DNA of 64,000 nucleotides, from the NCBI GenBank assembly GCA_025153775.1, contig JAOALC010000003.1, positions 248,001 to 312,000 of the forward strand, given 5' to 3'. Of the stretch, positions 18,571 to 23,628 are shown piece after piece. The translations under genes were made by a program, and so were the position numbers. The DNA comes from SAR92 clade bacterium H231. Lineage in GTDB: Bacteria; Pseudomonadota; Gammaproteobacteria; Pseudomonadales; Porticoccaceae. The stretch's first letter is position 1. Each line of letters starts with the position of its first letter. The notes beneath the pieces were generated by a model. It was not told the DNA's origin. It saw nothing but the letters and a program-made list of their open reading frames with translations, and did not search any database.

Positions 18571-18706
18571 AGCTATAAATCGTCTTTTTATGCAATTTTG
18601 CCGCTGTCGCAGTGCTGTACGTCTTTGTCGCAAGTTCAAAAGCATCGATGCAAACTTAGGAACAAAATGCCGCAAATTCCACTTATGAATGATTAGAGAT
18701 GCGGCA

Positions 18707-19873
18707 ATGACAACAACCTCAAAAATAACCGAGACCAAGCCCTTTGGCTTTGGTACACAGATTCGCAAGTCTCCCTATTTTGATGCCACGTTGCGCTGGG
18801 GTGCAGCCGGATTTTCTGTTTACAATCATATGTATATCCCCAGAGATTTTGGCGATCCAGAGCAAAATTTTTGGAACCTGATTAACAGCGCCACCCTCAG
18901 TGATGTAGCGGTTGAGAGACAGGTTGAGATCACTGGGTCAGATGCGGCCACATTTGTACAGATGTTGACTCCACGCAACCTGTCTAACTGCGCTGTAGGC
19001 CAGTGCAAATATGTGCTGATCACCAATGCTCAGGGTGGCATTCTCAATGATCCCATTCTGCTGCGCTTGGGTGAAAACCACTTTTGGCTATCCCTGGCAG
19101 ACAGTGATATTTTACTCTGGGCCCAGGGTCTGGCTGTGACCTCTGGGTTAGATGTTGAAATTTGCGAGCCCGATGTGTCTCCTCTGCAGCTGCAGGGTCC
19201 CAAATCTGGTGAGATTATGCACAGCTTGTTTGGCGACCGAATCAATGATTTGCGTTACTACTGGTTTGCAGATTTTGAACTGGATGGTATGCCGCTAATT
19301 ATCTCTCGCACAGGTTGGTCCAGCGAGCTGGGATACGAGATTTATCTGCGTGACGGCAGTCGCGGTGATGAGTTGTGGGAGCGTCTTATGCAGGCAGGCC
19401 AGCCCTTTGGTTTGCAGCCTGGCCATACCTCAGCCATACGTCGTATTGAGGGGGGCATGCTGTCCTATCATGCGGATATGGACAGCCACACCAACCCCTT
19501 TGAGTTGGGGCTCGACCGCCTCGTTGATCTGGAAATGGACGCTGACTTTATTGGCAAGGCCGCGCTTAAAAAAATCGCCGAGCAGGGCGTTAGCCGCAAG
19601 CAGGTGGGATTAGAGATCGACGGCGAACCTCTGGTGGGCGCCAATAACGACTTCTGGCCAATTATTGTAGGTTCAGAGCAGATTGGCTGTGTCACGTCGG
19701 CGATCTACTCGCCGCGACTGCAGGCAAATATTGCCCTGGCGATTGTGAGTATAGACTTTAGCGCGCTGGATACTGAGGCCGAGATAGTCACCTCATCAGG
19801 CCGTCGCTCTGTTAAAGTTGTGCCCAAGCCATTTTACGATCCCAGAAAAGCAATAGCGGCCAAGGCCGAATAA
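18707..19873 (+). CDS. GcvT-family aminomethyltransferase, DmdA-like (candidate DMSP demethylase)
   Basis: A 388-residue protein of the GcvT/DmdA fold, which moves a methyl or methylene group to tetrahydrofolate. It looks closer to marine dimethylsulfoniopropionate demethylases (DmdA) than to glycine-cleavage GcvT: SVYNHMYIP (37-45), GQCKY (98-102), GGILNDP (110-116), WLSLADSD (127-134) and EPDVSPLQLQGP (154-165) all have DmdA counterparts as I recall them. The RTGWSSELGYEIY stretch (201-213) differs from the SKQGG form I recall in proven DmdA, so substrate is uncertain. The start at 18707 follows AGAG by eight bases; the ATG at 18689 has no ribosome-binding site. It heads a tight operon with CoA-related genes. 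Confidence 0.72.
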   Translation: MTTTSKITETKPFGFGTQIRKSPYFDATLRWGAAGFSVYNHMYIPRDFGDPEQNFWNLINSATLSDVAVERQVEITGSDAATFVQMLTPRNLSNCAVGQCKYVLITNAQGGILNDPILLRLGENHFWLSLADSDILLWAQGLAVTSGLDVEICEPDVSPLQLQGPKSGEIMHSLFGDRINDLRYYWFADFELDGMPLIISRTGWSSELGYEIYLRDGSRGDELWERLMQAGQPFGLQPGHTSAIRRIEGGMLSYHADMDSHTNPFELGLDRLVDLEMDADFIGKAALKKIAEQGVSRKQVGLEIDGEPLVGANNDFWPIIVGSEQIGCVTSAIYSPRLQANIALAIVSIDFSALDTEAEIVTSSGRRSVKVVPKPFYDPRKAIAAKAE

Positions 19874-19882
19874 AAATAATCC

Positions 19883-20332
19883 ATGGGTATTGCAATCAAT
19901 CACAATAACTACTCAGACGCCTACCTCAAGCAGATACTCAGCGAGGTCAAAACCATAGCGCTGGTGGGAGCCAGTCCAAGGCCAGAGCGCGATAGCTACA
20001 GGTGCATGGCAGCGCTGCTCGACGCTGGTTACAATATAATTCCGGTAAATCCTCGTGAGGCGGGCAATAGCATCCTGGGTCAGCGCTGCTATGATTGTCT
20101 CGCTGCCATAGAGCAGCCCATAGATATGGTAGAGATTTTTCGCTCATCAGAGGCGGCATTGGCTGTCACTGAGGAGGCGATCTCTATAGGTGCAAAGGTG
20201 GTGTGGATGCAGCTTGAGGTGCGCAATCAACAGGCCGCCGAGTTGGCTGAGGCCGCCGGTATCAAGGTTGTTATGGATCGCTGCCCAAAGATAGAATTGA
20301 CCAAACCCTATTGGACTGGAGTAGAGGCTTAG
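19883..20332 (+). CDS. CoA-binding-domain protein (YccU type)
   Basis: A 149-residue single-domain protein with the Rossmann-like CoA_binding fold: IALVGASPRPERDSY near residue 30, YNIIPVNPRE, and VVWMQLEVRNQQAAELAEAA. It resembles the N-terminal CoA-binding domain of succinyl-CoA synthetase alpha and E. coli YccU. The biochemical role of the family is unknown. It lies 9 bases after the DmdA-like gene and 49 bases before the crotonase-fold gene, so it probably acts in the same CoA-dependent process. Confidence 0.85.
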   Translation: MGIAINHNNYSDAYLKQILSEVKTIALVGASPRPERDSYRCMAALLDAGYNIIPVNPREAGNSILGQRCYDCLAAIEQPIDMVEIFRSSEAALAVTEEAISIGAKVVWMQLEVRNQQAAELAEAAGIKVVMDRCPKIELTKPYWTGVEA

Positions 20333-20381
20333 TTCAAATTCAAAAAATAATAAACCCCAAGGCAGGGGCTGAGAGGCGGTT

Positions 20382-21188
20382 ATGGCAGATCAGGTAGACA
20401 GTGATATTTTACTCAGTGAAACATCAGAGGGTATTCTAAGGCTGACATTAAATGACCAGAAGCGTCGCAATGCACTCTCTGAAACTATGTTGGCGCAGCT
20501 GTCTGACACCTTTGCCCAGGCGGCTCTCGACCCCGCAGTGCGGGTAATAGTGTTAGCCGCTAATGGCCCCGCCTTCTGTGCAGGCCACGATCTCAAAGAA
20601 ATTACTGCAGCCAGGTCTGGAAAAGATAACGGCAAGGCTTATTTTGAAGCGCTGTTTGCTACCTGTGCCTCTCTAATGCAACTTATTGTGCGCAATCCCA
20701 AGCCGGTGATTGCAGAGGTGACCGGTGTGGCCACGGCGGCGGGCTGTCAGTTAGTCGCCAGCTGTGATCTGGCTATGGCTGCAGACTCAGCGCTGTTTGC
20801 TACGCCCGGGGTCAATATAGGCCTCTTCTGTTCAACTCCTATGGTGGCCCTGTCACGCAATGTCGCCAATAAGCAGGCTATGGAAATGTTATTGACCGGA
20901 GATATGATCAGTGCACAAAAAGCGCAGCAAATTGGTTTAATTAATCAGGCTATCAGCCCTGAGGAGTTAACTGAACAAACCATGGCTATGGCAACCAAAA
21001 TTGCTGCCAAGTCGACCATGACCATTGCTATGGGCAAGCGAGCATTTTATGAGCAGGCAGAGATGCCATTGGAAGACGCCTATAACTATGCTTCTCAGGT
21101 GATGGTGGATAATATGCTTAAGCATGATGCTGAAGAGGGCATAGGCGCCTTTATCGGAAAGCGTTCACCAGAATGGCAAGATAGATAG
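20382..21188 (+). CDS. Crotonase-fold protein, ECHDC3-like, lacking both catalytic glutamates
   Basis: A 268-residue enoyl-CoA hydratase/isomerase-fold protein. The oxyanion-hole motif FCAGHDL (65-71) and GVATAAGCQLVASCDLA are present. However, the positions of the two hydratase glutamates are Gln123 (GCQL instead of GCEL) and Gly143 (TPG instead of PEI). Together with GLFCSTPMVALSRNV, this pattern matches the ECHDC3 subgroup, whose reaction is not settled. It is therefore unlikely to be a standard enoyl-CoA hydratase or a DmdD methylthioacryloyl-CoA hydratase. It lies 8 bases before the acyl-CoA ligase gene. Confidence 0.85.
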   Translation: MADQVDSDILLSETSEGILRLTLNDQKRRNALSETMLAQLSDTFAQAALDPAVRVIVLAANGPAFCAGHDLKEITAARSGKDNGKAYFEALFATCASLMQLIVRNPKPVIAEVTGVATAAGCQLVASCDLAMAADSALFATPGVNIGLFCSTPMVALSRNVANKQAMEMLLTGDMISAQKAQQIGLINQAISPEELTEQTMAMATKIAAKSTMTIAMGKRAFYEQAEMPLEDAYNYASQVMVDNMLKHDAEEGIGAFIGKRSPEWQDR

Positions 21189-21196
21189 TACAGGCT

Positions 21197-22840
21197 ATGC
21201 CCAGCATCTATGATCTTGACCTCGACCAACAGCAGGCTAATTATCAGCCCCTGACGCCGCTGGCATTTTTAGAGCGCGCCGCCGCGGTGTTCCCCGACCA
21301 CACAGCAGTGATTTATGGTGAGCTGCAAATAAACTACCGGGATTTTTATCGTCGCTGCCGACAGTTTGCCTCGGTTTTAGCGGCCCGTGGAATTGGCCGT
21401 GGCGACACAGTATCAGTGATGCTGGCCAATACTCCGGCCATGCTGGAAGCCCATTATGCGATCCCTATGTGCGGTGCTGTATTGCACAGCATGAACACCA
21501 GGCTGGATGCTGGGGTGATTGCCTTCCAGTTGGACCATGCAGAGTCGCAGGTATTGATTACAGATACCGGATTTTCCGCGACCATGGAAGAAGCCCTGAG
21601 GCTGGCCAGTGTTGAGCCTCTGGTTATCGATTATCAGGATGCAGTTTTTCCGCAGACCGGCGAACGGCTGGGTAGCCATGACTACGAAACTTTACTGGCT
21701 GCAGGTGATGCAGACTTTGCCTGGTTGATGCCTGAGTCTGAGTGGGATGCTATTGCCCTAAATTATACCTCGGGCACCACAGGCGATCCCAAAGGCGTGG
21801 TGTATCACCATCGTGGCGCCTGCCTACTGGCCCAGGGTAATGCGATCACAGCCTGCATACCCAAACATGCGGTCTATCTCTGGACCCTGCCTATGTTCCA
21901 CTGCAATGGCTGGTGTTTCCCCTGGACCCTATCCGCGGTCAATGGCACCCATATCTGTCTGCGCGAGGTTCGCGCTGATGCTATCTGGGCGGCGCTGGCA
22001 GACCATCAGGTTACCCATCTCTGCGGTGCGCCAGTGGTTATGTCGACTATTCTGACTGCTGAAGCAGCACAAAAGCGACCACTGCCCCAGCCTGTGGAGT
22101 TCTTCACTGCTGCCGCGCCGCCACCAGAATCTGTGCTCTCAGATATGCGTGAGGCCGGATTTAATGTCACTCATCTCTATGGCTTGACCGAAGTCTATGG
22201 CCCTGCTGTGGTCAATGATTGGCATGCCGACTGGGATCTGTTGCCTGCCCCAGAGCAGGCGGCATTAAAAGCTCGCCAGGGGGTGCGCTATCAGGCTCTC
22301 GAAGCGCTGGATGTGCTCGACCCAGAAACCATGATTCCCGTGCCCAGGGATGGGGAAACATTGGGCGAGGTAATGTTCCGCGGCAATGTGGTGATGAAGG
22401 GCTACCTTAAGAATAAGCAGGCTACAGACAAGGCATTTGCCGGGGGCTGGTTCCACTCTGGAGATCTGGCTGTGGTCTATCCCGATGGCTATATACAGCT
22501 AAAGGATCGCTCCAAAGATATTATTATTTCCGGGGGCGAGAATATTTCCTCTATTGAAATTGAGGAGGTGCTGCACAAGCATCCTCAGGTCGCCGCCGCC
22601 GCTGTGGTGGCCATGCCCCATGTTAAATGGGGTGAAACCCCCTGTGCCTTTATTGAATTGGTGGCTGGAACAGAGGCGACGGCAGACGATTTGACCCAGT
22701 GGTGTAAACAGCATCTGGCCAGTTTTAAGGTGCCCCGCCAATTTGTGTTTGAGAATATAGTTAAAACCTCTACAGGTAAGGTACAGAAGTTTATACTTCG
22801 CCAGCAGGCAGAAAAATTAGCTGGGGAGCAGAATTTTTGA
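21197..22840 (+). CDS. Acyl-CoA synthetase (AMP-forming), DmdB-like candidate
   Basis: A 547-residue adenylate-forming ligase that activates a carboxylate to its CoA thioester. The ATP loop YTSGTTGDPKGVVYHH lies near residue 195, the LYGLTEVYGP adenylate motif near 325, the hinge region YIQLKDRSKDIIISGGENIS near 435, and the catalytic lysine region TSTGKVQKF near 530. It belongs to the short/medium-chain group that includes 3-methylmercaptopropionate-CoA ligase (DmdB), the second enzyme of DMSP demethylation. The neighbour supports that reading, but sequence alone cannot set the substrate. It overlaps djlA by four bases. Confidence 0.85.
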   Translation: MPSIYDLDLDQQQANYQPLTPLAFLERAAAVFPDHTAVIYGELQINYRDFYRRCRQFASVLAARGIGRGDTVSVMLANTPAMLEAHYAIPMCGAVLHSMNTRLDAGVIAFQLDHAESQVLITDTGFSATMEEALRLASVEPLVIDYQDAVFPQTGERLGSHDYETLLAAGDADFAWLMPESEWDAIALNYTSGTTGDPKGVVYHHRGACLLAQGNAITACIPKHAVYLWTLPMFHCNGWCFPWTLSAVNGTHICLREVRADAIWAALADHQVTHLCGAPVVMSTILTAEAAQKRPLPQPVEFFTAAAPPPESVLSDMREAGFNVTHLYGLTEVYGPAVVNDWHADWDLLPAPEQAALKARQGVRYQALEALDVLDPETMIPVPRDGETLGEVMFRGNVVMKGYLKNKQATDKAFAGGWFHSGDLAVVYPDGYIQLKDRSKDIIISGGENISSIEIEEVLHKHPQVAAAAVVAMPHVKWGETPCAFIELVAGTEATADDLTQWCKQHLASFKVPRQFVFENIVKTSTGKVQKFILRQQAEKLAGEQNF

Positions 22841-23628
22841 ATACAGGCAAAATTATTGGTGGGCTGGTGGGATTTATGGTGGCGGGCCCCTTCACAGCGC
22901 TGTTGGGCCTGTTTATAGGTCATCAATTCGATAAAGGCCTGGGTGGCGCGCTCAGACCCATGTCTGCCCAAGAGCAGGAGCTTGTTCGCACCACATATTT
23001 CGAGACATTATTTAGCCTGCTTGGTCATTTAGCCAAATCCGATGGCCTTATATCTAAGGTTGAGATTGCCCAAGCCGAGTCTCTGATGGGCAATATGGGG
23101 CTGGATACCAGTAGCCGCCGCGCTGCTATTGAGCTATTTCAGCAGGGTAGTAAAGCTGAGTTTTCCATTGATCAGACCATGGCCACATTTAATAGGGTCT
23201 GTGGCCGTCAGAATAATCTCAAGCGCTCTCTACTGAATTATCTGCTGGCGTTGGCCATGGCTGATGGTGAGCTGCACCCGGCAGAGCAGGATGTGCTGCA
23301 AATCGTGGCCAAACACCTGGGTTTTTCCGCGTCTCTGTTTAAAAAGTTTATTGAAATGGTTAAGGCCCAGTCCCAGTTTAGGGACTCGGGCTACCAGCCC
23401 CAGGGTCCCAATACTCAGGGCCAACTGGATGCTGCCTACACTGCTCTGGGAGTTAAGGCGTCCAATACAGATGGGCAAATCAAAAAGGCCTACCGAAAAT
23501 TAATCAGTGAAAACCATCCAGATAAATTGATTGGCCAGGGTATGCCTGAGGATATGGTCAAGTTGGCAACCGAGCGCACCCAGAAAATTCAAACCGCCTA
23601 TGACTGTGTGGTTGCTCACCGAAAATAA
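22837..23628 (+). CDS. djlA: DjlA-type membrane-anchored J-domain co-chaperone
   Basis: The 263-residue protein starts with one membrane segment rich in glycine (GKIIGGLVGFMVAGPFTALL, from residue 4). A TerB-like helical domain (about 50-175) and a C-terminal J domain with the HPD motif in ENHPDKLIGQGMP follow, the architecture of E. coli DjlA. DjlA stimulates DnaK at the inner membrane. The start is a TTG overlapping the ligase stop (TTGA), behind GGGGAG. Overlap with the ligase gene suggests shared transcription even though the function looks unrelated. Confidence 0.9.
   Translation: MNTGKIIGGLVGFMVAGPFTALLGLFIGHQFDKGLGGALRPMSAQEQELVRTTYFETLFSLLGHLAKSDGLISKVEIAQAESLMGNMGLDTSSRRAAIELFQQGSKAEFSIDQTMATFNRVCGRQNNLKRSLLNYLLALAMADGELHPAEQDVLQIVAKHLGFSASLFKKFIEMVKAQSQFRDSGYQPQGPNTQGQLDAAYTALGVKASNTDGQIKKAYRKLISENHPDKLIGQGMPEDMVKLATERTQKIQTAYDCVVAHRK

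Follow-up and report, generated by a model that had tools for sequence, protein, structure and literature searches.

How a marine bacterium might take dimethylsulfoniopropionate (DMSP) through demethylation and on to methanethiol with a gene set that departs from the described operons is the question raised by a locus of SAR92 clade bacterium H231. The stretch analysed, referred to here as the window, comprises 64,000 nucleotides (positions 248001-312000 of contig C3 in a genome of 2,931,580 bases). At 18689-22840 of the window four genes stand in line on the forward strand, and we consider it likely that they form a horizontally moving DMSP-demethylation cassette.

The first gene (18689-19873) encodes a DmdA-like protein of the GcvT fold, with GCV_T and GCV_T_C domains, that belongs to a branch we call A1; it is 394 amino acids long, or 388 if translation begins at an alternative ATG at 18707. 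It is followed by genes for a YccU/PH1109-like CoA_binding_2 protein (19883-20332; 149 amino acids), for a PRK08139/ECHDC3-type crotonase (ECH_1; 20382-21188; 268 amino acids) that is missing two catalytic glutamates, and for an AMP-forming acyl-coenzyme A (acyl-CoA) ligase of the PRK08162 type (AMP-binding; 21197-22840; 547 amino acids), which is a probable ligase of 3-methylmercaptopropionate (MMPA) to CoA. Only 9, 49 and 8 bases separate successive genes. A first-pass annotation of the locus had described four tightly spaced genes for a GcvT-fold, a CoA-binding, a crotonase and a ligase protein, and gene coordinates and family matches confirm this; of the extent that it gave, 18571..22840, the four genes are borne out, whereas position 18571 itself lies between a tRNA-Leu gene and dmdA.

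A DmdA-like protein on a branch of its own

DMSP demethylation as the best reading of the first gene is supported by published complementation of a mutant with SAR92 dmdA genes, and this core function of SAR92 DmdAs is thus already known. According to the accessible text of He et al. (2023, mBio, PMC10746254), the DmdAs of SAR92 strains HTCC2207, H921 and H231, which share 73.8-86.5% mutual identity and form a branch peripheral to clades A-E, restored methanethiol production in a Ruegeria pomeroyi dmdA mutant to 53.8, 34.3 and 37.2% of wild type, respectively; a further strain, H455 (accession CP103416), is described there as having no bona fide dmdA. The window DmdA and its counterparts in two genomes of our sample (G026 and G001) show pairwise identities of 73.6, 73.6 and 86.3% over aligned positions (72.6, 73.2 and 85.6% over the alignment length). 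The same paper ascribes a dddD-dddTBC-iclR-lysR cluster to H231 and H921, and on contig C1 of the window genome (272000-290000; L198 266-9255) we find a run that resembles, from gene order and sizes, dddD divergent from dddT-B-C-iclR-lysR. The 875-residue frame of this run holds two PF02515 domains, and the run is a probable DMSP cleavage cluster. Because both the pairwise identities and the ddd gene order match, we take the complemented DmdAs to be of the window type, and one of them is probably the window gene itself.

The window protein shares its fold family and its characteristic residues with canonical DmdA, although identity is only 36-40%: the closest solved structure is that of Pelagibacter ubique DmdA (3tfh; 39.5% identity over the 331 available residues), and the protein annotated as DMSP demethylase in Phaeobacter inhibens DSM 17395 is 36% identical. 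Residues Y32, N33, M35, N107, D108, S122, D125 and E204 (P. ubique numbering) are invariant in 102/102 A1 proteins and in 10/10 canonical DmdAs, and the window protein has the full DmdA-typical set (YNxM, S122, D125, W/Y197, E204 and Y206). Position 197 is Trp in 101 of the 102 A1 proteins and Tyr in six of the ten canonical ones; position 206 is Tyr in 72 A1 proteins and Phe in 30. W171, called key to DMSP in the available text of Hernandez et al. (2020; PMC7487153), would by our own mapping be W197.

An ordinary GcvT was considered and ruled out, as the protein is only 25% identical to the other stand-alone GcvT-like protein of the genome (L005) and carries DmdA residues that are absent from GcvT and from L005. 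We also note, outside the window (contig C3, 573000-589000; L049 4470-15052), a second stand-alone GcvT-like gene (393 amino acids), which stands behind a pair of FAD-oxidoreductase-like genes and ahead of one for a 696-residue protein with the look, by its sequence, of an ADP-forming acyl-CoA synthetase.

Phylogenetic analysis was carried out on 48 sequences, 29 from the A1 branch and ten canonical DmdAs of the Roseobacter and SAR11 types, with clades B, C and E unsampled. Because long-branch joins were flagged in the first tree, the set was thinned and the distant outgroups were removed; for the resulting tree the canonical SAR116 reference was not recovered (L164), and its L166 row derives from an over-long frame. 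The A1 branch was supported at 98/95 and stood apart from the ten canonical DmdAs (100/100). The DmdA identity proposed in the first-pass annotation therefore does not extend to membership of any sampled clade, yet the active SAR92 DmdAs of the published work are likewise peripheral to clades A-E, so that placement outside the sampled clades does not refute a role with DMSP.

A ligase resembling those linked to dmdA elsewhere

CoA activation of the demethylation product, the second element of the earlier proposal, finds support in the fourth gene. The P. inhibens ligase whose gene immediately precedes dmdA shares 47% identity with the product of this gene, and 33-34% with two other ligases of the window genome that score higher with the relevant family model (see below). 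Ligases encoded between a DmdC homologue and canonical dmdA in three SAR11 genomes are 50-51% identical to the cassette ligase. We read this ligase as the probable DmdB of the cassette. Three SAR92 loci with another class of dmdA provide a comparison: there identity to the P. inhibens counterparts is 52-53% for the next ligase and about 71-72% for DmdD. The dmd operon of P. inhibens DSM 17395 (dmdC, dmdD, ligase, dmdA) thus shares a demethylase and a 47% identical CoA ligase with the window, but only the operon includes dmdC and a DmdD that keeps the two catalytic glutamates.

Conservation and sites of the cassette within the genus

Among 50 genomes of the SAR92 genus, 25 gave a DmdA-type match (E <= 1e-50): 16 encode a protein 74-100% identical to that of the window (class 1) and 11 one that is 46-52% identical, two genomes having both. 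In 16/16 class-1 genomes the three further genes (CoA-binding, crotonase, ligase) come after dmdA in the order seen in the window (rechecked in 15/15 fetched loci); in three of these loci (L032, L039 and L046) the ligase frames are short, the longest reaching only 308-369 residues. The crotonase is confined to genomes that have a DmdA-type match (20/25, against 0/25 of the others), a split with a chance of ~1e-9 by simple arithmetic that ignores relatedness. One genome without a DmdA-type match at this threshold is G025. The other dmdA class has surroundings of its own: in L054, L055 and L060 it is followed by a DmdB-like ligase gene and by one for a DmdD that keeps both glutamates, which makes a second, differently built cassette in the genus.

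In the window the cassette is preceded by secG and the tRNA-Leu gene and followed by djlA (22837-23628), which overlaps the ligase gene by 4 bases, and by a tRNA-Met gene. Six class-1 cassettes lie between secG and djlA, eight have other surroundings and two are on contigs too short to place; at L043 three extra genes share the secG-djlA interval with the cassette. One genus genome has an empty site (L291; secG, tRNA-Leu, djlA). Elsewhere a fragment of the ligase gene (L289) and a fragment of the dmdA gene (L293) each stand directly before djlA in genomes without a DmdA match at threshold, and these remnants look like a decayed cassette. Base composition gives no sign of foreign origin, GC running at 46-54% per kb without a jump where the cassette lies, and none of the 14 short direct-repeat families found is a convincing flanking integration pair. 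Neither promoter patterns (8, against 5.8 in shuffled sequence, sd 2.3) nor terminator patterns (6 against 5.2, sd 2.3) were clearly in excess.

Spread of the A1 branch and its genomic company

A scan of named genomes recovered at least 574 confirmed relatives of the window DmdA, the best 80 of which are 62-77% identical to it and come from many Rhodobacterales, 23 Pelagibacteraceae, SAR86, SAR116, Marinobacterium, Halomonas, Thioglobus and one Acidimicrobiales bin. The nearest plasmid-borne relatives (six records from Phaeobacter inhibens and Loktanella; 71-74% identical) stand in cassettes that keep the gene order with an OsmC gene in place of the CoA-binding gene; the texts returned by our literature search held no description of DmdA with OsmC, hydratase and synthetase in Phaeobacter. 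On one such plasmid, pP30_b of P. inhibens, which is conjugative by its typing, a tyrosine-recombinase gene stands on either side of the cassette (L064 7283-14011). In Marinobacterium (L078, L081) two A1 copies stand in tandem, separated in L081 by a formyl-transferase-type gene.

We surveyed 7 kb around the DmdA gene in these 80 named loci, 52 of which have 6 kb on both sides. A crotonase gene was present in 23, an Lrp gene in 23, a ligase gene in 19 and an OsmC gene in 15; CoA-binding (9), SBP56 methanethiol oxidase (9) and ferredoxin (8) genes were less frequent, and a DmdC homologue was found in 0/80. The fullest run, SBP56-ferredoxin-CoA-binding-crotonase-ligase-DmdA, is that of L142 and L143, and L104 and L126 have the same gene set divergent from DmdA; Pfam matches confirm both SBP56 and the ferredoxin at L126, and SBP56 at L133. 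In a SAR11 genome (G061; L216 2196-5160), crotonase, SBP56, ferredoxin and CoA-binding genes form one run away from a lone A1 gene.

SBP56 is a known methanethiol oxidase (PMC5739008). As far as the available text of that paper goes, its neighbourhoods have an IclR-type regulator upstream, and an IclR-looking gene, by sequence reading, is likewise present in L104, L126 and L133; the partners differ, being SCO1/MauG genes there and ferredoxin, CoA-binding protein and crotonase genes here. Methanethiol oxidase, dmdA and the cassette neighbours were not described together as a cassette in the texts that our literature search returned. No SBP56 gene was found in the window genome, and in the genus only 2/50 genomes have one, both distant.

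The company of the crotonase was also examined from the other side, at 60 of 100 places in Pseudomonadota, picked to spread over the list. Genes for a thioesterase (36), rpsI (34), a CoA-binding protein (24) and an O-acetylhomoserine sulfhydrylase (15) were its neighbours. This company is a weak pointer to a sulfur role and may be inherited synteny. An A1 gene was near just 3 of the 60 places, which would suit a reading in which there is no common pathway, dmdA serving DMSP and the other three genes some general short-chain acyl-CoA or thiol function. Crotonase-synthetase pairs without an annotated DmdA-like gene in Paracoccus seriniphilus (where the record ends close by) and Caballeronia agree with such a reading, as do four SAR92-genus genomes that have the CoA-binding, crotonase and ligase genes without an adjoining dmdA. 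These four genomes do, however, carry another DmdA-type gene, 13-19 kb off in three and on another contig in the fourth, and the conserved order in all 16 class-1 genomes, at several sites, and in the plasmid cassettes speaks against unrelated functions, so that we regard this explanation as very improbable.

Evidence against a DMSP cassette

Several observations weigh against the assignment of the four genes to DMSP demethylation. With the NCBI equivalog model for DmdA, NF009133, the window protein scores 373.7 bits, under the cut-off of 410; the A1 proteins of 16 named genomes are also under it, and canonical DmdAs score 442-692. Forcing the window protein in with the ten canonical DmdAs is rejected (AU p = 8e-7, for a group chosen after the first tree had been inspected). 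The cassette ligase reaches only 291 bits with the NCBI model for MMPA-CoA ligase (NF005426; cut-off 822), and two other ligases of the window genome come nearer, at 772 and 709 bits. None of the cassette families sought lies within 7 kb in 45 of the 80 surveyed loci, including all 23 Pelagibacteraceae. In the accessible text of He et al. (PMC10746254), H231 and H921 gave no detectable methanethiol from DMSP and HTCC2207 alone did, and the gene order is given as dmdA-acuH-dmdB-dmdC; the window, by comparison, has a CoA-binding gene after dmdA, a crotonase unlike AcuH and DmdD and no adjoining dmdC, and no dehydrogenase gene stands next to the cassette in the window genome or in the fetched flanks of G001 and G026. 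The columns of the two catalytic glutamates are occupied by Gln and Gly in the window crotonase and in 39/39 PRK08139-type rows, whereas DmdD rows keep Glu (the DmdD-type rows L054, L055, L060, L069 and P. inhibens DmdD and one other crotonase, L124, were set aside before the 39 were counted). Finally, a canonical DmdA is also present in 8/16 A1 genomes searched with the DmdA model, including 3/4 from SAR11.

This last coexistence suggests a partly different role for A1, and it would fit an enzyme that mainly demethylates another donor (another sulfonium, an N-methyl compound or MMPA) and takes DMSP as a side substrate. A lichen bacterium plasmid, on which a 57% identical protein is encoded beside folate C1 genes and transporters with no ligase gene, points the same way, as does the proposal, in the part of PMC3160333 available, that a second DmdA-related aminomethyltransferase of SAR11, SAR11_1265 (a protein not assigned to A1), takes off the second methyl group. 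Such a donor nevertheless seems improbable to us: the SAR92 DmdAs complement the Ruegeria dmdA mutant (PMC10746254, as available), the seven GCV_T matches of the window genome include no second DmdA candidate, and some A1 neighbourhoods hold a methanethiol oxidase gene.

A crotonase without the catalytic residues of DmdD

With both catalytic glutamates absent, the label AcuH/DmdD is ruled out for the window crotonase, which is only 26% identical to P. inhibens DmdD. In the R. pomeroyi enzyme the two glutamates are proposed as general base and general acid, and no methanethiol is released from MMPA-CoA (PMC3660561, in the text available). The nearest solved chains, 3myb and human ECHDC3 (2vx2), are of the same family and share the motif that surrounds the replaced glutamates; the matches listed in our literature search gave no methanethiol role for ECHDC3 in the text they offered. 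The family is common, with PRK08139 crotonases in 96/398 Pseudomonadota genomes (E <= 1e-60).

The first-pass annotation had held that DmdC and a catalytically intact DmdD are missing and that the route is incomplete or different. The replacement of the glutamate pair by Gln and Gly agrees with this for DmdD, and a search of the whole window genome yielded no DmdD over 36% identity (12 matches). For DmdC the claim holds for the cluster and not for the genome, which encodes four dehydrogenases of the DmdC family (PF12806), all on contigs other than that of the cassette. That the route is different may well be right, because the crotonase is without the residues by which DmdD works. Most marine bacteria that have DmdA are reported to be without DmdD (PMC5395565, in the text available).

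A proposed route to methanethiol

The following route, on the DMSP reading, would accommodate these observations. The DmdA-like enzyme would demethylate DMSP to MMPA, with tetrahydrofolate as the methyl acceptor, a step that draws on the published complementation and on the probable link to the window gene. The ligase would then make MMPA-CoA, judging from its similarity and gene context, and one of the four DmdC-family dehydrogenases encoded elsewhere might oxidise this to methylthioacryloyl-CoA. Judging from its genomic company, the crotonase may help to release methanethiol from the thioester, and its chemistry would have to differ from that of DmdD; this is the least certain step, and it could be either hydration of methylthioacryloyl-CoA with other residues or, with no dehydrogenase involved, elimination of methanethiol from MMPA-CoA. 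One might speculate that the CoA-binding protein and the OsmC that replaces it are accessories, perhaps in the handling of thiol or CoA products. As no SBP56 oxidase was found in the window genome, the methanethiol is probably assimilated or released.

The second option for the crotonase amounts to a dehydrogenase-free variant in which beta-elimination from MMPA-CoA yields methanethiol and acryloyl-CoA and bypasses both DmdC and DmdD. It is favoured by the lack of dmdC near any of the 80 loci, 23 of which have the crotonase, and the crotonase adjoins the methanethiol oxidase in the SAR11 run at L216. Against it, no base is evident where both glutamates are replaced, DmdD, which is also a crotonase, cannot free methanethiol from MMPA-CoA (PMC3660561, same text), and the acryloyl-CoA reductase AcuI is not over cut-off in the window genome (best 99 of 297 bits); the genome also has its four DmdC-family enzymes, and the accessible text of He et al. 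(PMC10746254) has dmdC induced by DMSP. We therefore think the variant unlikely.

A broader proposal, that PRK08139/ECHDC3 crotonases are unrecognised methanethiol-releasing enzymes which act on a methylthio-acyl-CoA (MMPA-CoA or methylthioacryloyl-CoA) with a CoA-binding partner and feed methanethiol oxidase, we put forward with low confidence.

Implications

Beyond the published function, the contributions of the analysis are the distribution and mobility of the A1 branch across Rhodobacterales, conjugative plasmids, SAR11, SAR86, SAR116 and Halomonas, the recurring company of the crotonase and CoA-binding genes with methanethiol oxidase and ferredoxin genes in some relatives, SAR11 included, and two points read from sequence comparison, a DmdB-like ligase and the misfit of the crotonase with DmdD/AcuH. 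DMSP demethylation co-determines the share of algal sulfur that is kept from dimethyl sulfide, and surveys that rely on the NCBI DmdA cut-off would miss the A1 type in SAR11, SAR86, SAR116 and Rhodobacterales and on plasmids. The crotonase that travels with this DmdA branch, with a DmdB-like ligase and sometimes with methanethiol oxidase, provides a concrete candidate for the step left vacant by DmdD.

In humans, methionine transamination gives rise to methanethiol, upstream of SELENBP1, in a step that has no assigned enzyme. Were it true that PRK08139/ECHDC3 crotonases release methanethiol, they would fill the place of the absent DmdD in many marine bacteria, and the ECHDC3 type would become a candidate for this human step.

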